Part shown: piece after piece, positions 11,101-33,232 of the stretch
Numbering within the stretch: the first letter of the stretch is position 1
How the letters are laid out: each line of letters starts with the position of its first letter
Assembly: GCA_031264105.1 (NCBI GenBank)
Contig: JAISEM010000030.1
Location: 1 to 33,232 of the forward strand
Origin: Endomicrobium sp.
Lineage (GTDB): Bacteria; Elusimicrobiota; Endomicrobiia; Endomicrobiales; Endomicrobiaceae
Direction of reading: 5' to 3'
Length of the DNA: 33,232 nt
Position numbers and translations under genes: made by a program
Notes under the pieces: generated by a model
Database searches by the model: none
What the model saw: the letters and a program-made list of their open reading frames with translations, nothing else
Told to the model about the DNA's origin: nothing

Positions 11101-14100
11101 ATGAGTAAATCTCGGATAATTTCTGTTCAAGCCTCTGCTGGTTCTGGCAAGACGTATAATCTTGCCAAAAGATACATTTACCTATTATTTAATTCTGATG
11201 AAAATATAAACATAAAAAATATTATAGCAGTCACTTTTACAAACAAAGCGACTCTTGAAATGAAATACAGAGTTATAAATTATCTTAAAAAAGCCGCTTT
11301 GGAACAGGACCCCAACGGCTTTTTTGACGATTTAAAATTGTCAAAACAAGAAATTGCTAAAAAGAGTAAAGCAATTTTAAATACGATTCTTACCTCTTAC
11401 GATAGTTTTAACATAAGTACAATAGACAGCTTCAAAAATCGCATATTAAAATCTTGCGCTATGAGTATTGATATATCTCCGAATTTCATAATAGAACAAG
11501 ATTATTCTGATACCCTCATGTTTTCTTTAGAAAACTTTCTGCAAAAAACTAAAAGATCTGGTAATTTAAAAAGCATGGTTTTAAAATGCGTCTCCCAATA
11601 CCTTATGAGAGATTCTGGTTGGCTTCCTAAAGAGAGCATATACGGAGAAATATTAAAAATTTTTAATAAGTCTGGAAATTCAGGCAAAGATATATTTTGC
11701 ATTAATGACGTAAATTTTAGAAATGAACTTTATTCAATGGCGCAAGCAATTGAAAAAAAAGTTGTAGATTTTTCAAAATTCCTAATAAAATTAAAACTAA
11801 ACGCTCATTATGGTAAAGCAGTGTCTAAAGTTTTAAAAACAGGAGCTAAATTATTCCTTTCTGCGAGTACTATTCCTCAAAGATTTAAATATGGTGATTT
11901 AGAGTATTTAAGAAATCCTCAAAAGTCTCAAGAAGCTGAGAATATATGGCATGAAATCCACAATGATATTTGTTCTCTTTGCCAATTCTATGTTGAAAAT
12001 TATTATGGTATTTATTCACAAATATACTCGGAAGTTTCTCTTGAGTTTGATAAACAATCAAAAAAAGATGGTGTAGTATATTTAAATGAAATAAATAAAA
12101 AAATTGTTAATTATTTTGAAAACGACAACAATATAATGCCTGAGATTTATTATAAGCTTTCTGAAAAATATAAGCATTTTCTAATTGACGAATTTCAAGA
12201 TACAAGTACTGTTCAATGGGTTGGAATTAAAAGATTTATAGAGGAAAGTTTAGCAGAAGGAGGAAGCTTCTTTTTTGTTGGAGACGTAAAGCAGGCCATC
12301 TATTCTTTTAGAGGTGGAAGATCAGAGTTATTTAACTCTATTGCAAATGAATTTTCTTCAGCTGAAATAGAAAAAAAATATTTAAATCGAAATTTTAGAA
12401 CAAGAAAGACAATAGTTGATTTTAATAATAAAGTTTTTTCTTTGGAAAATATTAAAAAGCTTTTTAATTCTTTTTGCGAATGCGAAAAAGAAAAAATTGA
12501 AACTGATTTTACAAAGATGATAGAAACCTATGATTTTTCACAACAACAATCCCAAAAAGATGGTGGATACGTTGAAATCAATACAATAGACAAAGGTTGT
12601 GATGATATTGATGAAGAAATAAAGCAAAAATTTATATCTTGCATTCTTCGGATTTCAGAGAGATTTAATCCTCGAGATATAGCGGTTTTGTGTAGATCAA
12701 ACGAAGAAATACTTAAAGTAAGTCTATGGCTTTTAGAAAACAATTATGAAGTTGAATCGCCACAAACTTTGAATATAAGAAATAATAGTTTTATAAAGCA
12801 GATAGTTTCACTATTGATGTTTATAAATTCCCCTATAGACAGTCTTTCATTTTCGTCTTTTTTGTTTAGCGAAATTTTTTCTAAGGCGTCTGGCATTTCC
12901 AACGAAAAAATGGCCGAATTTATTTTTGATTGTAAGTTAGATATTAAATCAAAGACCCTTTATAAAGTTTTTAGAGAAAAATATAAAGATATATGGAACG
13001 AGTATTTTAAGGAATTTTTTGTAAAAGCAGGTTTTATTCCAACGTATGAATTGACACTTTCCATACTTGATAGATTTAATATCGGAAATTTTCCCGAAGG
13101 GAAAGCTTTTATAGTGCGATTTCTTGAGATTATAAAAGATTTTGAAACTCAAAAGCCAGGTCTTAAGAATTTCTTAGAATATTTCAAAAGTCTTAGCAGT
13201 GATAAGGACGAACTTTATATAAAAAACTCTTTTGGTAATGGAATAAAGGTGATGACTGTCCATAAGTCTAAAGGATTGGAATTTCCTGTTGTGATAGTTC
13301 CTTATCTTAAACTTTCATCCGAATCTGTAAGAAATCCTTATTTTGATGATTTTGGTGAAAAGATAAAATTGTTAAATATAACAAAAGATCTCGCAGATTT
13401 TTCGCCAAATGCAAGAAAAGTGTATGAGAAAGAAAAGCTAAATTCTCTGCTAGGAGAACTCAACGTTTTATACGTTTCAATGACAAGAAGCAAATACGAA
13501 TTTTATGGAATAGTTCCGCCAAAAACTAAGCAATCAAATAACTTAATAGCTGCTTTGTTTGACGGCGAAAACTTTTCTTTAGGACAAAAGCAAAAATATC
13601 TGTCAGACTGCTATAAAAAAGAAGATGTGATATACGACTCATATGTTTCTGCAGGTTACAAAGATATAAATAAATATCCAATTATTTCTAAAAAAAACTC
13701 GTTTGACATCACTGAAACTAGAAAAAAAGGGATTATTGTCCACTATGCTTTATCAAAAATTATTACGGTTAAAGATGGAAATATGGAAGATATTATTAAA
13801 GACTCGCTAAAATTTACAGAAAGAAGATTCTCTTTTGAGGACGTTAGTTTTGTAAAAGAGAAGTTAAAACGATTGTTTTCTTCAAAAGAAATACTTGAAA
13901 TATTTTCTTATGAAAAAGATAGAGTTTTTAATGAGAAAGAAATTGTGGATCTTTACGGAAGATCTTATAGAATAGACAAACTCATAGTTAGTGATGATAG
14001 TTTTACAGTAATTGATTTCAAAAGCTCAAATTATGATGAAGAAGAGAATAAAAAACAGTTAGAAAATTATGTGTTGTTGGTATCTGAGATTTATCCAGAT

Positions 14101-14163
14101 AAAAAAGCTTTTGCTTATATTGTAGACATAGATAAAAACTCATTGGTGGAAATGTGTCATTAA
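11101..14163 (+). CDS. UvrD/AddA-type ATP-dependent helicase-nuclease
   Basis: 1020 aa; VQASAGSGKTYNLAKR Walker A, VTFTNKATLEMKYR, DEFQDTSTVQW, GDVKQAIYSFRGG, VMTVHKSKGLEFPVV, C-terminal VIDFKSS nuclease-like motif. Confidence 0.88.
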   Translation: MSKSRIISVQASAGSGKTYNLAKRYIYLLFNSDENINIKNIIAVTFTNKATLEMKYRVINYLKKAALEQDPNGFFDDLKLSKQEIAKKSKAILNTILTSYDSFNISTIDSFKNRILKSCAMSIDISPNFIIEQDYSDTLMFSLENFLQKTKRSGNLKSMVLKCVSQYLMRDSGWLPKESIYGEILKIFNKSGNSGKDIFCINDVNFRNELYSMAQAIEKKVVDFSKFLIKLKLNAHYGKAVSKVLKTGAKLFLSASTIPQRFKYGDLEYLRNPQKSQEAENIWHEIHNDICSLCQFYVENYYGIYSQIYSEVSLEFDKQSKKDGVVYLNEINKKIVNYFENDNNIMPEIYYKLSEKYKHFLIDEFQDTSTVQWVGIKRFIEESLAEGGSFFFVGDVKQAIYSFRGGRSELFNSIANEFSSAEIEKKYLNRNFRTRKTIVDFNNKVFSLENIKKLFNSFCECEKEKIETDFTKMIETYDFSQQQSQKDGGYVEINTIDKGCDDIDEEIKQKFISCILRISERFNPRDIAVLCRSNEEILKVSLWLLENNYEVESPQTLNIRNNSFIKQIVSLLMFINSPIDSLSFSSFLFSEIFSKASGISNEKMAEFIFDCKLDIKSKTLYKVFREKYKDIWNEYFKEFFVKAGFIPTYELTLSILDRFNIGNFPEGKAFIVRFLEIIKDFETQKPGLKNFLEYFKSLSSDKDELYIKNSFGNGIKVMTVHKSKGLEFPVVIVPYLKLSSESVRNPYFDDFGEKIKLLNITKDLADFSPNARKVYEKEKLNSLLGELNVLYVSMTRSKYEFYGIVPPKTKQSNNLIAALFDGENFSLGQKQKYLSDCYKKEDVIYDSYVSAGYKDINKYPIISKKNSFDITETRKKGIIVHYALSKIITVKDGNMEDIIKDSLKFTERRFSFEDVSFVKEKLKRLFSSKEILEIFSYEKDRVFNEKEIVDLYGRSYRIDKLIVSDDSFTVIDFKSSNYDEEENKKQLENYVLLVSEIYPDKKAFAYIVDIDKNSLVEMCH

Positions 14164-16946
14164 TAATAAATGTAGATATTAACAAAAATATAATTGATTT
14201 TACATCAGAATATATTTCAAAATCAAATAAGAAAATTGCCGTTATAAGCGGTGGAAAGAGACCTTCTCTTTTTATAAAGAGAAAACTCGCGCAAGATAAA
14301 GGCAAAGCTTTTTTCTCTCCAAGTTTTTATACAAATGATGAGTTTGTTGAACAATCTGTTTTTGAAAAATTAAAACTTATTAAAATATCAGATATTGAAG
14401 CATCGTATACGGTATATAAAATTATAAAAGATGAAGTGCCGCATCTTTTAAAAGAAGATTCTTCTTTTGCGTCATTTATGGAATGGTCTTTGGAGATTTT
14501 TTCATTTATAGAGCGACTAGACCTAGAAAATGTTTCACAAGAGAAACTTAGATCTATAAAAGCAAATGCTGAAATTGGTTATGATGTGCCTGAAAATATG
14601 AATAATTTATTAAAAAATATTTTTAAAATAAGAAAAAGTTTTCATGCAGAACTAGAAAAATCGTATAAAACTACAAAAGGATTTAGTTTTCTTAAAGCTG
14701 TAGAGTCAGATTGTTGTTTAGGTAACGATGAATTTGAAGAAATAATATTGTTGGCGCCTTTTTACCTGCATAAAACCGAAATTAAAATCTTTAAGAGAAT
14801 TTACGATTCTGGAAAACTCACGATAATTGTTCAAGGAGATCCTAAAGAGTTTGATGTCCTTGAAAATTTATATATGGAATTTGGGCAAATATCACCAAAT
14901 CTAAAACCATTAAAGAATAACTATGAACTAAGTATATATTCTGCTAGCGATGACCAATCTCAAGGAAGTTTGTTGAAAAATCTGATTAGCTCATATAGCC
15001 AAGAAGATTTTGATAATGCTGTAATTGTTGTCCCTGATACGAAAATGTTGCAGTCTGTAATATCTGAAATTTCAATAGTCACAGATAAGTATAACGTATC
15101 TGCTGGATATTCTGCTGATAAAACAGCGGTATTTTCTCTCATAAATGAGATTATAGAAGCCCAGCTTTCAAAAAGAGAAGACTGCTATTATTCAAAGCAT
15201 ATTATAAGAATATTAACTAATCCGCTTTTCAAGAATATAAGGTTTTTTGGTGAGAGCGCTATATCTAGAATCGTCTCCCATAAAATTGAAGAGTCTTTAA
15301 CTTCAGGCTCAAATAAAAATTTAAGCGGTAAGATGTTTGCTTCTTTTAAAGAAATAACAGAAGATAAAGTCCTTATAGAAGATATAGAAAAAAATATATT
15401 CGGAGCAGGGCAATATTTATCAGTTGAAAAAATTAAAAAAATATTAAATGAAATTTTCGAAGATTTTTTCGTATCTTGGGAAAGTATAGAGACATTCAAC
15501 AATTTGTCAGAAGTTCTTTTTCGTTTTTTAAACAAATTATATAGAATGTCTGCTGTCAACAGTTATCCATTAAATATAGAGGCAATGGATATTCTATTGT
15601 CTATGTGCGAAGAAATGAAGTGTGGTGAAGTTTCAAAAGTACGCTTTAAAAATGAAGAAATACTTACGGTTTTTAAAAAGTTTACAAAAAATAAAAGAAT
15701 GTCTCTGCCAGGATCTCCATTAAAAGGACTACAGATATTAGGCCTTTTAGAATCGAGAAATCTTTTTTTTGAAAATGTCTTTATAGTCGGTATGACAGAT
15801 TCTGCAATTCCTGCTGTAAAAAAAGATTATTCTTTAGTGCCTAAAGATATAATGTACTGTTTAGGCATAGAAATGACTCGTAAAGAATATGAAATACAGA
15901 AATATCATTTTAACAGGCTTATTGCTGGAGCCAAAAAGTTAAATCTTATTTACCCAGATAACGACAAAGAAGAACGTAGCAGGTTTATAGAATCTATAAT
16001 ATGGGAAAGACAGCTTGAAAAAAAAGATTTAGATACTGTAAAAGTAAACAGGTTTGTTTTGCCAAAGTTTTCAATAAAAAAAACTTTAAAACAAAAATAT
16101 GAAAAAACAAAAAAGATTAAAGAATATTTAAAGAATATTCCATATACTTATAGTAAAATTGATTCTTATTTAACGTGTAGATTGAAGTTTTATTTTCAAT
16201 ATGTGTTGTCGCTTGACGAAGAACGCGAGATAGGAAGTGATATTTCTGGCGCAGACATAGGAAATTTTATACATGATTTTTTAAAAGATGTTTTTTATGA
16301 AAGCCTTGCAGTTGAAGAGTTGCAAACAGAAAAGTTTAAAAAAGATTTTTTTAAGAAGCTTAACTATAAATTTGAGGCTTCTTCTTATTTTAGTTTTAGA
16401 GAAGATGCTTTTCTCATAAAAGAAGTTTTTGCAAACAGAATGGAAAAAGTTTTAGAAAAAGAAAAGCGGAGAGACTTTAAAAATATTTATATATGCGAAA
16501 AAGAATATAATTCAAATATTAAAACGGATTCTAGAAATACTTATAAACTCAACTGTAGAATAGATAGAATAGACGCTGGCATTACAGATTATATGATATT
16601 TGATTATAAGACAGGGTATATCAATGATAATATTGTTTCAAAAAAATATTTTGATAATTTAAATTTCGACAGACAAGACATAAAAAGAGCTGTTAAATCT
16701 TTACAACTTCCTTTATATAAATATATCTTTGAAAAAGAATCAGGATTAAAAGTTGTGCAATCTGGCGTATATAATTTAAAAAAGGCTGAAATCGTAAACT
16801 TCCCGCAGGAACAATATATACAAGAAAAATGTATCGATATAATAAAATTTTTGCTTGACGAATTAAATTCGGGAGATTATTTTATTTTTGACGAAAAAGA
16901 TGAGCCTAACTGCAAGGCTTGCAAATATTTCTACATATGCAGATAA
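14154..16946 (+). CDS. AddB-like protein with C-terminal PD-(D/E)XK nuclease
   Basis: 930 aa; starts GTG overlapping the preceding stop; YSKIDSYLTCRLKFYFQYVL, IGNFIHDFLKD, MIFDYKTGY, CKACKYFYIC. Confidence 0.82.
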   Translation: MSLIINVDINKNIIDFTSEYISKSNKKIAVISGGKRPSLFIKRKLAQDKGKAFFSPSFYTNDEFVEQSVFEKLKLIKISDIEASYTVYKIIKDEVPHLLKEDSSFASFMEWSLEIFSFIERLDLENVSQEKLRSIKANAEIGYDVPENMNNLLKNIFKIRKSFHAELEKSYKTTKGFSFLKAVESDCCLGNDEFEEIILLAPFYLHKTEIKIFKRIYDSGKLTIIVQGDPKEFDVLENLYMEFGQISPNLKPLKNNYELSIYSASDDQSQGSLLKNLISSYSQEDFDNAVIVVPDTKMLQSVISEISIVTDKYNVSAGYSADKTAVFSLINEIIEAQLSKREDCYYSKHIIRILTNPLFKNIRFFGESAISRIVSHKIEESLTSGSNKNLSGKMFASFKEITEDKVLIEDIEKNIFGAGQYLSVEKIKKILNEIFEDFFVSWESIETFNNLSEVLFRFLNKLYRMSAVNSYPLNIEAMDILLSMCEEMKCGEVSKVRFKNEEILTVFKKFTKNKRMSLPGSPLKGLQILGLLESRNLFFENVFIVGMTDSAIPAVKKDYSLVPKDIMYCLGIEMTRKEYEIQKYHFNRLIAGAKKLNLIYPDNDKEERSRFIESIIWERQLEKKDLDTVKVNRFVLPKFSIKKTLKQKYEKTKKIKEYLKNIPYTYSKIDSYLTCRLKFYFQYVLSLDEEREIGSDISGADIGNFIHDFLKDVFYESLAVEELQTEKFKKDFFKKLNYKFEASSYFSFREDAFLIKEVFANRMEKVLEKEKRRDFKNIYICEKEYNSNIKTDSRNTYKLNCRIDRIDAGITDYMIFDYKTGYINDNIVSKKYFDNLNFDRQDIKRAVKSLQLPLYKYIFEKESGLKVVQSGVYNLKKAEIVNFPQEQYIQEKCIDIIKFLLDELNSGDYFIFDEKDEPNCKACKYFYICR

Positions 16947-28005: not shown

Positions 28006-28158
28006 CTAGCGGCTGTATTTTAGAAATAGTAGTAGTATTATTATTATGTCCAAATGATTGGCAAAGCGAAAAAAAGAAGCTAAAGAGTCAAAGATAACGA
28101 TATAATTATAATGTAGTTATTAATTAGTAATTGTATTTACTCGAAGACTGTTCTAAAT

Positions 28159-28404
28159 TTAAAACTGAAATTCTTGCTGCTGATTTCCTAATTCTATCGC
28201 TTTTATATCCTCTCGACTATAGAATATCTTATAAAAGACATCGGGATTTTCATTGACAAACTCTATAAATTTACCGTAACTTCCCCTAAAATTCAATTTT
28301 TCGCGCTCAATTTCCATATATTTATGGGCTTCTTTTGGCTTGTTTTTTGACCCTCTTCGTCGGCCGCCATAGAATAAATGCCCTTTTTGAAACCCTCGTC
28401 CCAC
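28159..28404 (-). CDS. Small basic hypothetical protein (GRRRGSKNK motif)
   Basis: 81 aa; GTG start preceded by GAGGAAAA; 9 nt after the TAA ending the upstream frame on the same strand. Confidence 0.5.
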   Translation of the reverse strand: MGRGFQKGHLFYGGRRRGSKNKPKEAHKYMEIEREKLNFRGSYGKFIEFVNENPDVFYKIFYSREDIKAIELGNQQQEFQF

Positions 28405-28413
28405 TTTTCCTCG

Positions 28414-28731
28414 TTAAATCGAGTTTTTTATACTATTTTTATACTCGAGCAAAATAAGTTGAGCCACGCTATCCCTCGTCGATACCAAATGTAGCGACCA
28501 AGTCGCAGAATGTTCTGCCTCCATCTTTTTTAGCTTACCGTTTAGATCTTTTAGCTCTTCTACTTTATCAGTGCTAGACGAAGATATCTTCTTTATCTTC
28601 TCTCTTATCTTATTTTCTTCCGCGATACCTTCTTTTATAAAGGGAACAATTTTTGCTCTTATATCTCTTCTTAAACCTTCTATAAGCTCTCTGAAACCGC
28701 TTTCATAAGTTTGCTGCGGTTTATCTTCGTA
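28414..28731 (-). CDS. 105-codon open frame in phase with the upstream lipoprotein, separated by one TAA; coiled-coil-like
   Basis: YEDKPQQTYESGFRELIEGLRRDIRAKIVPFIKEGIAEENKIREKIKKISSSSTDKVEELKDLNGKLKKMEAEHSATWSLHLVSTRDSVAQLILLEYKNSIKNSI*; no ATG start of its own. Confidence 0.45.
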   Translation of the reverse strand, partial: YEDKPQQTYESGFRELIEGLRRDIRAKIVPFIKEGIAEENKIREKIKKISSSSTDKVEELKDLNGKLKKMEAEHSATWSLHLVSTRDSVAQLILLEYKNSIKNSI

Positions 28732-30201
28732 TTACATTTCTTGCTCCTTTAGCGGAAGGAGAGGCAGCCTCTTCTGTGCCCTTTGTACGTTTAGCGCGGC
28801 AGTTAGTGATGGAACTGGATCAGAAAGATACTCTAGCTGCCTTAGTTCGGCCGTCCCCAGCCTCATTGCAAAAGTACATCTATCCTTTAAAGTTGGTTGC
28901 TGAAAAAAAGTCTTCACTTCAGATAGCATTTCTTTACCAGCTCCTATAAGCTTTAGTTTGAAGTCTAGAAGTTCAACTTCAATATTATTAAGTAAATCAC
29001 GGTTGCTTAGTAGTAATACTAGGTCAGAGTGAGATATCTCATTATTAAGCAAATATTCCATCTTGTCGTCAATAGTAGATAAGTTCATATATGTGCGATA
29101 AACAGCCGTTGGAGGTGGAGCTGGCTGGGCATTGGGCTTGGGCTGCGATTTCTTTTGAGGGGGTGCTGGAGCGTCCGCTACCTCCGCCGCTAGTCTTCGC
29201 GCGATAATTTCTCCTCCGCGACCCGTGAGTACATAGCTGCCTCTGATCACTTTTAGATCCTGGATGGTCAGAGGTTCATTTTCCAAAAAGTCGTCTCGAG
29301 CGTCGTCGGTAGTTAGCTCCTTAAATTCTTGTAGTTTGGTCTTTCGTGGCACGCAAATTATTCTTTCTTTTTTGGCCTCTTCGTGTTTATCTCCCTGTGC
29401 TTCCGCTGGCTTGGACTTTTCTGGCAAGGAAACTATTTCTTCTTTTTTGACCTCTTCGTGTTTATCTTCCGCGTCGTGATTTATTAAAGATATAAATGAC
29501 GATGTTAATGGAGCAGGCGTAATTTTTGGAAACTCGTCGTCGGCGTGAGATGGTGAAGATATCAATGCCGATGCTGTTAATGGATTAGGTATAGTTTTTG
29601 GAAGCTCGTCGTCGTCGGCGGGGCGAGAACGTTGTTTTATTATTCGTTTGTTGATACGTTCGATTTGGTACTCCTCGAGAGGATATGTCTCGCGGATACT
29701 TTCTAGCTCCTCTATCGTCAGAGGTATAATTTTCAAAAACGCGTCTTGATCTGTCCTACTAATTAGCTCCCCAAATTCTTCTAGTGGGGGCAAGCTGTAA
29801 CCTCTCCTTAAATCTTTTTCGTCCTTCACAATTTGATAAATTTTTCTATTTATCTGGCGGAAGTTTTTACCATCGAGGTCGCTTCGCTCGAGTAGCCGCT
29901 CGAGAATCTCTCGGGATAACGTTTTTCTGGCCAAAAACTCGGATCGACGAGCTATCTCCCAATGTTCGTCAAAATATATCATTGCCTCCCTTACGCTATC
30001 TTGATCTTCCTCTTCGCTGTTAGAAGGCGGCTCGGATGTTACGTTCTTGGTTGGCTGATAGGTTTTTGTCGGTTGGACTTGCGGAGTTGGACTTGGAGTT
30101 GGCGTGTGGCTTATGTTTTTACTTTTGCACCCTATCGACGTCCAAATAGCTAACGAAATTGATAAAATTAACAAACGCACTTGAGGATTAATTTTATTCA
30201 T
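28732..30201 (-). CDS. Lipoprotein with Pro-rich linker and five divergent ~46-aa helical modules
   Basis: 489 aa; LILSISLAIWTSIGC lipobox; TPTPSPTPQVQPTKTYQPTKN linker; modules at aa 76-121, 142-187, 292-337, 370-415 and ~431-479. Confidence 0.8.
   Translation of the reverse strand: MNKINPQVRLLILSISLAIWTSIGCKSKNISHTPTPSPTPQVQPTKTYQPTKNVTSEPPSNSEEEDQDSVREAMIYFDEHWEIARRSEFLARKTLSREILERLLERSDLDGKNFRQINRKIYQIVKDEKDLRRGYSLPPLEEFGELISRTDQDAFLKIIPLTIEELESIRETYPLEEYQIERINKRIIKQRSRPADDDELPKTIPNPLTASALISSPSHADDEFPKITPAPLTSSFISLINHDAEDKHEEVKKEEIVSLPEKSKPAEAQGDKHEEAKKERIICVPRKTKLQEFKELTTDDARDDFLENEPLTIQDLKVIRGSYVLTGRGGEIIARRLAAEVADAPAPPQKKSQPKPNAQPAPPPTAVYRTYMNLSTIDDKMEYLLNNEISHSDLVLLLSNRDLLNNIEVELLDFKLKLIGAGKEMLSEVKTFFQQPTLKDRCTFAMRLGTAELRQLEYLSDPVPSLTAALNVQRAQKRLPLLPLKEQEM
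29332..29613 (-). repeat. Tandem duplicated linker segments inside the lipoprotein gene
   Basis: DDELPKTIPNPLTASALISSPSHA / DDEFPKITPAPLTSSFISLINHDA, then DKHEEVKKEEIVSLPEKSKP / DKHEEAKKERIICVPRKTKL; also visible in DNA (TCTTTTTTGACCTCTTCGTGTTTATCTTCC vs TCTTTTTTGGCCTCTTCGTGTTTATCTCCC). Confidence 0.8.
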
Positions 30202-30534
30202 AGTTTCCCTTTTTTTATCTTGATTAAATAATATTATATTATTTTTTTTTCTTTTTGCCAGCGCCGTTGCCGTTTAAGTTGTTTTATTAAATGTCGCCGT
30301 TGTCGTTGCATTGTCGGGTAGTTAAATTAAAAACTAAAATTTGGCAAAAAAGCGTTTGTCTGTTGTTAGCCCTGGGAGACTTAGATTAAAAACTTTAAAG
30401 CCCTCTTGATTTTTTTAATTCGTAAGTTTTTATTAAATCGCTGATGTCTGTTTGCAAAAACATTTCAACGCTCCTTAAAATTTGCTAAAAGATACTAAAT
30501 TTAATAATACAAGTATTGTCAATAATCAGATAAA

Positions 30535-30828
30535 TCAATCTGTTTGAGTGTTTGTCCCATCGTCTGTAATTTCTGTGTATTCCTTTTTATCTTTTGGACC
30601 ACTTGAAGACTTGTTTACTAATTCAATATATCTTTTATTTATAACCCCAGACGAACTTTTATATTCTTGTATGATAGATTGATAATTTTCACGCGTTACA
30701 TTTGATATAAAAGAAAAGAAAGTATAAATCAATCCGACACTAATACATATCGTTCCAAGAATTCCCGCTGGACTTTTAAAACTATTATCAATTTTTAACA
30801 AAAAGCACCCGGGAATAAGCGTTAACAA
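30535..30828 (-). CDS. Small membrane protein, hypothetical
   Basis: 97 aa with two hydrophobic segments and a polar C-terminus; directly downstream of the restriction enzyme gene on the same strand. Confidence 0.5.
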   Translation of the reverse strand: MLTLIPGCFLLKIDNSFKSPAGILGTICISVGLIYTFFSFISNVTRENYQSIIQEYKSSSGVINKRYIELVNKSSSGPKDKKEYTEITDDGTNTQTD

Positions 30829-30863
30829 TAAGACAATTATAGATTGGAGTTCAATTTTTTGTA

Positions 30864-31595
30864 TTACAAATACATTTTCAAATCTTTTTGCACTAATGCT
30901 ACTGCGTTTTTAACGATATGTTTTTCTAACGGCTTGAAATGTTTGTGAATTGGAAAATCTATATTTCTTTCGCCTTTTAGAAATGTAAAGATATTCAAAT
31001 TCACATCTTCAAAATAACTCATTATTGAATGTGTTGATTGAGCGCCATATGCTGTTTCTGGCAAATCAGAATAATCGCCGCCGAGTTGGCTTTCAAGTTG
31101 AAACAAGTAGCAGGATATATTTGGATATAAAGTCTTTAACAAATGAAAGTCCACAAGTATTCGTTTTATCATTGCGTTTTCAGTATAGGCTTTGCACTCT
31201 ATACCCATAACGAATTTATCGTCAATAAAAATGTGTTTGTCAACGATTAACCCATATGAATAATCTTCTATATGTTCCTTTATATATTTTTTGACTTTTT
31301 CGTCCTTAAGATTTTCAACATAGGTTTTTTGTATAGGAATTTTTATTTTCTTTGAGTTAATTTCAAACCGCTCTTTTTTGCCTTTGAGATTAGCCCAAGC
31401 AAGTTTTATAATGTCTTCCGTTATAGCTTCTTGCAATTTACCTTTAACCATACGGACAACTCCGCCGTAAGCCCTGTCAGTCTGCTCTTTGGCTTTATCA
31501 TCAACGACACGAACAATAGCGTTATACATTTTGATTATTTCAGAAATACTTGGAGCAGTTTTGTAAGGCTTCATCATTTCGGAGGCATTAAACAT
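30864..31595 (-). CDS. Putative Type II restriction endonuclease
   Basis: 243 aa, 3 nt downstream of the methyltransferase; IFIDDKFVMGIECKAYTENAMIKRILVDF fits a PD-(D/E)XK core (D...ExK). Confidence 0.7.
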   Translation of the reverse strand: MFNASEMMKPYKTAPSISEIIKMYNAIVRVVDDKAKEQTDRAYGGVVRMVKGKLQEAITEDIIKLAWANLKGKKERFEINSKKIKIPIQKTYVENLKDEKVKKYIKEHIEDYSYGLIVDKHIFIDDKFVMGIECKAYTENAMIKRILVDFHLLKTLYPNISCYLFQLESQLGGDYSDLPETAYGAQSTHSIMSYFEDVNLNIFTFLKGERNIDFPIHKHFKPLEKHIVKNAVALVQKDLKMYL

Positions 31596-31597
31596 TT

Positions 31598-32731
31598 TTA
31601 ATCCTTTTGTTGTTTATGATTAAATAAAGTATCTGCTTCTTTAAGACGCTCTTTTGCAGTTTTGCAATAAGCCTCGTCAATATCAATGCCAATAAATTCT
31701 CTATCAAGTTCTTTTGCTACTTTTGTTGTAGTTCCTGCTCCATTGAAAGGGTCAAGCACGATATCGTTTTTATATGAGAATAATTTTATCGCTCTTTTTG
31801 CCAATTCTTCGGGGAACATTGCGTCGTGCTTATACTTTTTCATTTTTCTTTCTGGCGCGATAGACCATTTCCCATAAACCCATTTCTTAAATTCGCCGGC
31901 AGAAATATCAATATCGTCTTTTTTGCCATCTTTTTTTAATGTATCCTTGCAGAAAATTTCAATAAATTCCCAAGAGTATTTCATATACGGCGAAGACGGG
32001 CTTTTCCAACTTCCCCAAGTGCAGTATTTGCAGTTGTAATTATTTTTTTCCCAAATTATTTCGCCCTTCCAAATAAGCCCCTCTTTGAAAAAGAAATTAC
32101 TGACTATATGGTGTGTTGGGATATAGTCTGAAAATAAAGGCTGGATGTTTATAATAAAGCGTCCGCCGTTTTTAAGAACTCTATTGCATTCTTTGAAAAT
32201 TGCAAATAACTTGTCAAAATACCCTTCCCAGACGTTCACATCGCTTGTGTTGTTATAAGTAATGCCAAAATTATATGGCGGCGAAGTTAAAATTAAGTCA
32301 ATACAATTATCAGGCAAAGTTTGTAGAAATTCCAAAGAATTGGCGCAATGAATTTTATTGACTACTTTTTCTGAAATTTCATTATTGTTTTTTGCGAAGT
32401 TTTTTTGATAATACTCATAGCCTAATCTTTTCTTTTTGTTTTCGTCTTTATTTTGAACTTTTTTGGCTTTATTGAAACTTTTAAAAACGATTTTGCCGTT
32501 TGCGGAAGAAAATGAGCGAATTTTTAATAATTCGTCTAAAACACTACCGATTAGGCGGTTATTTTTATTTTGATATTCAATATACTTCATATCAACAATA
32601 TCAAAATTCAAAATTATATTATTATCGTCTAATTCCGTCTGAATTCCTGCTGTATTTAATATCTGAAAAGCTGACATAATATCGGTATTTGAATATTCAT
32701 TTTTTATAGCGACAGTCTTATATTGTTCCAT
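31598..32731 (-). CDS. Type II DNA methyltransferase, beta-class order, with ~120-aa N-terminal extension
   Basis: 377 aa; TSPPYNFGITYNN (motif IV) precedes DPFNGAGTTTKVAKELDREFIGIDID (motif I/X region). Confidence 0.9.
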   Translation of the reverse strand: MEQYKTVAIKNEYSNTDIMSAFQILNTAGIQTELDDNNIILNFDIVDMKYIEYQNKNNRLIGSVLDELLKIRSFSSANGKIVFKSFNKAKKVQNKDENKKKRLGYEYYQKNFAKNNNEISEKVVNKIHCANSLEFLQTLPDNCIDLILTSPPYNFGITYNNTSDVNVWEGYFDKLFAIFKECNRVLKNGGRFIINIQPLFSDYIPTHHIVSNFFFKEGLIWKGEIIWEKNNYNCKYCTWGSWKSPSSPYMKYSWEFIEIFCKDTLKKDGKKDDIDISAGEFKKWVYGKWSIAPERKMKKYKHDAMFPEELAKRAIKLFSYKNDIVLDPFNGAGTTTKVAKELDREFIGIDIDEAYCKTAKERLKEADTLFNHKQQKD

Positions 32732-33232
32732 AAAACCTCCAAGAAACTTTTAGTATCTATATTATACAAAAATAGCATATATTATATCTGAAAGAACAGC
32801 GTTGATTTGACTTAAATCACAATAGAAAATTCTTCGCAAACTGATTATCCGGGGTGCAAAATTATTATAGTAAATCAAAAGTGAATAGATGTAAAATAAA
32901 ATATGCTATCATAATGATTATGCAAGCATATATTCTCACGCCTTATTTGGCGATATTTTTCTATTTAGAACGTATTCCAAATATAAAAAATACCGTCTCA
33001 ATCGTCATATTTGCCTTTGCCTAAATTCCCCGAATGGATTACCGATAATAAATTTGAAGACAAAGTGAATATTGTAGTTTTTGAAATTCCAAGAGAAAAC
33101 TAGAAAGGCGAAGAAATAAAGAGCGTCAAAAAAGATTTCTTTATTAAAATTTCCAATAGGAAAAAACTCAAAACTTTTTTAAACAACTATACGAAATTAT
33201 TTAAAGAAAACCGATTAACGACAAATGAGAAA

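Follow-up and report, generated by a model that had tools for sequence, protein, structure and literature searches.

A dispersed, species-restricted family of lipoprotein genes, apparently diversifying, in an Endomicrobium genome

Introduction

Among bacterial surface proteins, the variable lipoproteins of mycoplasmas are the closest described counterparts of the genes considered here. Vpma of M. agalactiae, Vsp, Vsa and Mpl of M. penetrans are encoded by multi-copy families in reduced genomes. Their genes occur in tandem arrays and at dispersed loci, and they combine conserved promoter and signal-peptide ends with divergent mature parts that contain internal repeats. The vpma, vsp and vsa systems are defined by a recombinase and its recombination sites; those of vpma have been described as unaltered (PMC2268961).

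The genome considered here is that of a Candidatus Endomicrobiellum, a bacterium of a kind that inhabits wood-digesting protists in the termite gut. Members of this genus are symbionts living inside termite-gut flagellates; their genomes are eroding and marked by frequent horizontal gene transfer (PMC11257099). Close relatives express natural competence genes (PMC8809381). The window, that is, the whole stretch of DNA that was analysed, has a length of 33,232 nucleotides (positions 1 to 33,232 of contig JAISEM010000030.1, assembly GCA_031264105.1, Endomicrobium sp.) and contains a lipoprotein gene that belongs to a family within this genome. In several aspects this family resembles the mycoplasma families: it is multi-copy in a reduced genome, its promoter and signal-peptide ends are conserved and its mature parts divergent (a likeness that was tested and held), the mature protein has internal repeats (modules 1 to 3 and duplications in a linker), and tandem arrays exist beside dispersed loci. 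In contrast to the mycoplasma families, with which no sequence relation was found, diversification here, as seen in sequence comparison, is by substitution between paralogs, and the host is a protist and not an animal with antibodies. The family is new and unrelated by sequence, yet of a known general kind. The explanation favoured here, which we regard as evenly balanced between right and wrong, is that the window gene is a member, probably truncated at its 3' end, of a dispersed, species-restricted and diversifying family of partner-binding envelope lipoproteins.

The Lipoprotein Gene and Its Product

A preliminary description had placed an open reading frame of the window at 28732-30201 without assigning a strand. 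This frame is real, comprises 489 codons and lies on the minus strand. It has the following features (window coordinates):

28732..30201, minus strand: lipoprotein ORF, 489 amino acids, ATG start, TAA stop (ORF listing)
30127..30201, minus strand: lipoprotein signal peptide, residues 1-25, with lipobox TSIGC (motif rule)
30233..30261, minus strand: sequence resembling a promoter, CTGGCA-17-TATAAT, whose spacer is A-rich, ~30 bp upstream of the ATG; 10/12 matches, a consensus match only
30189..30400, minus strand: 5' region conserved among family members (alignments to the paralogs C22, C5, C2 and C10)

The same description had read a lipobox and a Pro/Thr linker from the translation, and both are indeed present. 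The stretch ending in ..TSIGC25 passes a PROSITE-like lipobox rule, and the linker comes after the signal. With TSIGC the window protein has the type II signal peptide by which bacterial lipoproteins are recognized. As in these, a hydrophobic signal is combined with a lipobox in the window protein and in most members of the family: eight of ten other members pass the PROSITE-like rule, and C10 and C31b do not. Unlike described lipoprotein families, the mature part of the window protein matches none. Searches of Pfam, NCBIfam, PHROGs and PADLOC, and of the PDB by sequence, gave no significant match for the protein, and the earlier statement that no family could be recognized holds across all of them.

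It had furthermore been remarked that the codons look unlike those of the neighbouring genes. This is right in substance, since the GC3 of the ORF is 0.40, compared to 0.21-0.29 in its housekeeping neighbours; the adjacent restriction-modification (R-M) genes have values of 0.31-0.32. Intact members of the family, with a GC3 of 0.38-0.43, lie above the same housekeeping neighbours, which is consistent with recent acquisition or with an unusual constraint.

Repeated Modules and Predicted Structure

The preliminary description viewed the protein as five diverged modules of one kind, starting at residues 76, 142, 292, 370 and 431. The regions concerned, and the linker between the second and the third, are:

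29839..29976, minus strand: module 1, residues 76-121; paralog profile E 0.024
29641..29778, minus strand: module 2, residues 142-187; 19/46 identical to module 3; four-helix model with pLDDT 92.9
29191..29328, minus strand: module 3, residues 292-337; paralog profile; pLDDT about 75-85 even without an alignment
28957..29094, minus strand: proposed module 4, residues 370-415; no sequence repeat, similar predicted helix spacing
28762..29013, minus strand: C-terminal region kept in paralog C22, including the proposed module 5; 48% identity, E 1.2e-18
29336..29617, minus strand: acidic/Pro linker with two internal duplications, 29336-29395 with 29411-29470 and 29498-29545 with 29570-29617 (repeat search, 83% and 81% identity)

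The 19 identities over 46 ungapped positions that had been claimed for modules 2 and 3 were reproduced. This pair is the best ungapped 46-residue self-match of the protein, with a BLOSUM score of 69, whereas the maximum among 1000 shuffles is 57, or 55 when composition is kept locally. A profile made from the modules of two paralogs of the same genome, and built without any window sequence, finds module 3 with an E-value of 7e-5, module 2 with 0.003 and module 1 with 0.024. Modules 4 and 5 have no significant match to this profile. Their pair scores with modules 1 to 3 range from -31 to 13, and against a profile of modules 1 to 3 module 4 scores -1.1 bits and module 5 is not listed. A profile-profile comparison of the modules with the C-terminal region of the window protein yields a probability of 2%.

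An AlphaFold2 model computed from a five-row alignment of the module consists of four short helices, with a mean pLDDT of 92.9. The structural check that had been suggested for the modules thus gave a confident model, for which Foldseek returned no significant match in the PDB or in a viral library. The most probable PDB match, condensin Ycg1, was rejected as a fold relative (probability 0.69, E 1.9). The mature protein modelled alone is mostly of low confidence, with module 3 well predicted; in this prediction module 4 has a helix spacing similar to that of the other modules. On the basis of the shuffle, paralog-profile and structure tests, therefore, the protein contains three repeats and possibly a fourth, with no support for a fifth. 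Of the original five, modules 1 to 3 stand as repeats, module 4 retains a similar helix spacing only and module 5 is unsupported.

A Probable Truncation and the Downstream Frame

Two further frames follow the lipoprotein ORF:

28414..28731, minus strand: in-frame continuation past the stop, 105 codons, ending ..QLILLEYKNSIKNSI before the TAA at 28414; probable lost C-terminus
28159..28404, minus strand: 81-codon ORF with GTG start, GRGFQKGHLFYGGRRRGSKNK.., following the lipoprotein here and in C22; pN 0.025, pS 0.214

The stop codon of the window gene, TAA at 28732-28734, is aligned with a GAA codon in C22. The window end ..QLILLEYKNSIKNSI matches the C22 end ..QLVLLEYKNSTKNSI, with changes that are mostly synonymous, and both ends are followed by a stop; in C22, most of the intervening stretch before ..QLVLLEYKNSTKNSI is gone. 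With window and paralog sequences taken as read, it seems likely that the gene once encoded a longer protein, of about 595 amino acids, that was cut by a nonsense change. Alternatively, the stretch behind the stop may be a short gene of its own that lacks a good start codon. It was also considered that a tail block of 93% identity might continue the lipoprotein in a different frame; this was ruled out by the pattern of codon changes, because the frame in which 15 synonymous versus 5 nonsynonymous changes are counted belongs to the 81-codon ORF and the ..NSI end.

The 81-codon ORF itself is under purifying selection. It carries a short basic motif, GFQKGH..GGRRRGSKNK, which by eye we take to resemble small phage packaging proteins of the GGRxxGxxNK type (DUF5681-like or small terminase-like). 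Pfam, PHROGs and phage records contain no match to it. Relatives occur in the same genome at C27, with stops, and, weakly, in the genomes G009, G013 and G020. Those of G013 resemble, by eye, small phage proteins of the terminase type, and a distant relative among them ends as small phage packaging proteins do.

A Family Dispersed in One Genome

The preliminary description dealt with a single gene whose paralogs were to be sought. They were found in its own genome, and none that convince were found in relatives. A count based on the signal peptide gives 13 lipoprotein genes or remnants, distributed over 8 loci: the window, C2, C5 (three in tandem), C10, C19 (three in tandem), C22, C31 (two) and C39. 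C27 is a possible further locus, with a coiled-coil lipoprotein-like ORF, traces of the upstream element that the members share, and the 81-codon ORF in degraded form. Within one group, members share ~70-200 upstream bases and the signal peptide; mature parts are often unalignable. The identity to the 5' region of the window gene (30189..30400) is 85% over 128 columns for C22, 78% over 196 for C5, 84% over 83 for C2 and 69% over 156 for C10. Modules of the C2 type ('..DPLY..I..') have no demonstrable homology to modules 1 to 3 and were dropped as instances of the same module. As the same holds for the C-terminal region of the window protein, it is mainly the 5' ends that define the family.

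Several traces of rearrangement surround the copies. Directly behind the C10 lipoprotein lies an inverted fragment of 118 bases that is 81% identical to the lost tail of the window gene (L038 8180-8297), and upstream of the same gene an IS1595-type transposase-like fragment can be read by eye (L009 1-1000). C31 (L037 8035-8161) and C22 (L005 3957-4083) share a 128-base block that contains a hairpin (TAAGGTATTTAAAGATAAATACCTTA); its two copies are 97.7% identical but inverted relative to the lipoprotein gene. Pieces of tyrosine recombinase/integrase genes abut the lipoprotein genes at C5, C19, C39 and C2 (L061, L074, L075 and L039). At C19 and C5 the lipoprotein start comes directly after an integrase fragment, read by eye (..LSRGYIEEN/KMGIKIV.. 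and a ..MRSKLEKQ-like piece/MGIKII..), as if the genes had been joined by recombination inside an integrase gene.

Conserved 5' regions in front of divergent mature parts, two tandem arrays and an A-rich promoter spacer would also be expected of phase-variable lipoproteins that are switched by a site-specific recombinase, as with vpma, vsp, vsa or mpl of Mycoplasma, and the inversion of a shared upstream block between C22 and C31 and the nearby integrase fragments point in the same direction. Nevertheless, such switching appears improbable. The assembly has two full-length tyrosine recombinase frames only, neither of them at a family locus, no convincing inverted repeats flank the promoters, and the 5' regions have diverged to 69-85% identity, as opposed to the unaltered recombination sites of vpma (PMC2268961). 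In contrast to vpma, vsp and vsa, integrase fragments and no recombinase stand beside the loci, and convincing recombination sites were not found there. Since the defining recombinase and sites were looked for and not found, the family is not filed with these systems. The assembly is 82% complete, and a recombinase could therefore be missing from it.

Genomic Context and Distribution

The surroundings of the gene can be compared with those in Candidatus Endomicrobiellum guadaloupense, which 7.2 kb of the window, together with the neighbouring gene MurI, match at 93%.

28040..33232, no strand: island; synteny with Ca. Endomicrobiellum guadaloupense (93.1% over 7247 columns) stops at 28039
30864..31595, minus strand: type II restriction endonuclease beside the lipoprotein gene (PADLOC REase_II, E 1.4e-107)
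31598..32731, minus strand: DNA methyltransferase of the same R-M pair (Pfam N6_N4_Mtase, E 3.4e-41; PADLOC)

The match ends at 28039, just behind a QueD-like gene, and in comparison with that species the sequence from 28040 onward is therefore an island, which contains the lipoprotein gene, the 81-codon ORF and a type II R-M pair. At the island site, E. guadaloupense has an ORF of 231 amino acids and, by eye, a PAS-PAS histidine kinase-like ORF (L022 7530-9717). Further away in the window (11101-16946, plus strand), two large neighbouring ORFs match RecB/AddA-like helicase-nuclease (E 2e-100) and AddB-like profiles; they are a recombination/repair pair kept in a reduced genome.

The C22 contig carries a second type II R-M pair (L005 138-2425; REase_II E 1.6e-101, methyltransferase E 5e-79). 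Between these genes and the lipoprotein lies an ORF of 157 amino acids (L005 3480-3953, minus strand) that matches positions 744-883 of the Dsr1 defence-protein profile (E 2.4e-12) and is apparently a Dsr1 fragment. The C31 copy adjoins a DNA methyltransferase-like gene, read by eye, so that R-M genes are present at three family loci.

This neighbourhood raises the question of whether the proteins are superinfection-exclusion lipoproteins that block competing phages at the envelope, borne by phages or mobile elements within defence islands, with pressure from phages as the cause of their diversification. Type II R-M genes beside the window and C22 copies and the methyltransferase (by eye) beside C31 would fit, as would the integrase fragments near C2, C5, C19 and C39 and the resemblance, by eye, of the downstream 81-codon ORF motif to small phage packaging proteins. 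We consider it unlikely, however: no relatives of the family were found in the phage and viral collections searched, viral contigs included, the PHROG matches are weak and confined to Rz-spanin-like proteins (E 0.05-0.08), and the C10 and C2 copies sit among housekeeping genes without R-M.

Protein and profile searches of 41 other genomes of the genus revealed nothing convincing, and one further search of this type took in 35 of these. The conserved region neighbouring the window gene is held by 38 of the 41. The nearest genome, G009 (94% complete), presumably E. guadaloupense, has 92% DNA identity over the neighbouring 2.5 kb and yet lacks the family. Two weak matches, in G041 (L003; NlpC/P60-like by eye) and G002 (L004), stand in unrelated contexts and were discarded.

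Selection on the Mature Modules

A comparison of nonsynonymous and synonymous change had been suggested as a check, and it was carried out on paralog pairs. Two pairs only, C5c/C19b and window/C22, are alignable over mature sequence and were picked for that reason; pN and pS come from a simple counting method. In codons 61-172 of C5c/C19b (112 codons), pN is 0.236 and pS 0.052 (one-sided Fisher 9e-5; 0/5000 bootstraps at or below zero), whereas codons 1-60, comprising signal and linker, give 0.210 and 0.356, the split at codon 60 having been chosen after viewing sliding windows. In the C-terminal region of window/C22 (81 codons), pN is 0.292 and pS 0.155 (Fisher 0.026, bootstrap 0.007). The control, MurI compared between species, gives 0.033 and 0.150. 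There is thus a nonsynonymous excess in the mature modules of both pairs, and none in the signal half of C5c/C19b or in the 81-codon ORF that follows the lipoprotein in the window and in C22.

Coding in a wrong frame or on the antisense strand was rejected as a source of the high ratios, as no other frame is open on either strand in the two tested regions. Transitions and transversions number 24/44 and 49/77 in module DNA; the corresponding counts are 375/111 for the genome as background and 9/5, 21/15 and 16/7 for the non-coding flanks that are shared. Local hypermutation is unsupported because the shared non-coding flanks have an ordinary substitution spectrum. The restriction of the transversion excess to the modules is as expected if selection on amino acids, and not a local mutator, drives the nonsynonymous excess. 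The simplest reading of these counts is that the modules may be under selection for amino-acid change.

A concentration of replacement changes in one part of the lipoprotein could also result from a diversity-generating retroelement. The adenine-specific substitution that is typical of these was not seen in the differing sites of the tested regions, which have no clear adenine preference (0.57 vs 0.56 expected; 0.67 vs 0.60), and an origin of this kind is very improbable.

The same measurements bear on whether the family is simply decaying and without present function, its members being relics of mobile elements or of former surface proteins, pseudogenes in an eroding genome. Frameshifts in C22, C2, C31 and C27, the stop codon of the window gene at the position of GAA in C22, beyond which the frame stays open for 105 codons, the inverted tail fragment at C10 and the integrase pieces abutting several copies can all be understood as decay, and eroding genomes have been described in this genus (PMC11257099). 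However, neutrality predicts a pN about equal to pS, and the modules show pN above pS. Several signal-peptide comparisons have pN below pS, and six members (C10, C5b, C5c, C19a, C19b and C39) are open and complete. Decay without function seems, on balance, rather unlikely, although it has somewhat more in its favour than phage exclusion.

A Possible Role in Contact with a Changing Partner

In the favoured explanation, that of a diversifying family of partner-binding envelope lipoproteins, each gene would join a conserved promoter and signal-peptide region to a variable mature part made up of small helical modules and Pro/acid-rich linkers. We infer that the proteins would be lipid-anchored in the cell envelope and exposed, and that the modules may bind a quickly changing partner, which would be either a host-cell factor of the flagellate or a phage or competing symbiont. 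Duplication, point substitution and the swapping of 5' and 3' pieces among copies would supply new variants, which selection would favour, and losing copies would decay. The broken copies (the frameshifts of C22, C2 and C31, and the probable nonsense change in the window) count against this explanation, as do the small number of informative paralog pairs, the departure of C10 and C31b from the lipobox rule, and the lack of demonstrable homology of C2-type modules and the C-terminal region to modules 1 to 3. Given the life of these bacteria within flagellates, the most likely partner would be a host factor, followed by phages or rival symbionts. The preliminary description had suggested contact with a host or partner; its modular, uncharacterized lipoprotein stands, and the contact itself was a guess to which the signal of diversifying selection and a multi-copy, species-restricted distribution now lend indirect support.

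A more far-reaching idea, doubtful at present, is that an obligate intracellular symbiont of a protist maintains a diversifying set of envelope lipoproteins, which keeps pace with a recognition system of its flagellate host. If true, there would be an arms race as in animal pathogens, yet inside a cell and without antibodies. Retention of such families would not be expected of a strongly reduced symbiont genome. The position of the family beside R-M genes bears on whether phages or the host drive surface change. As to how protists recognize and control intracellular bacteria, a young, multi-copy, replacement-rich family points to a contact surface, and its members are named proteins that may be used as probes for the flagellate partner.
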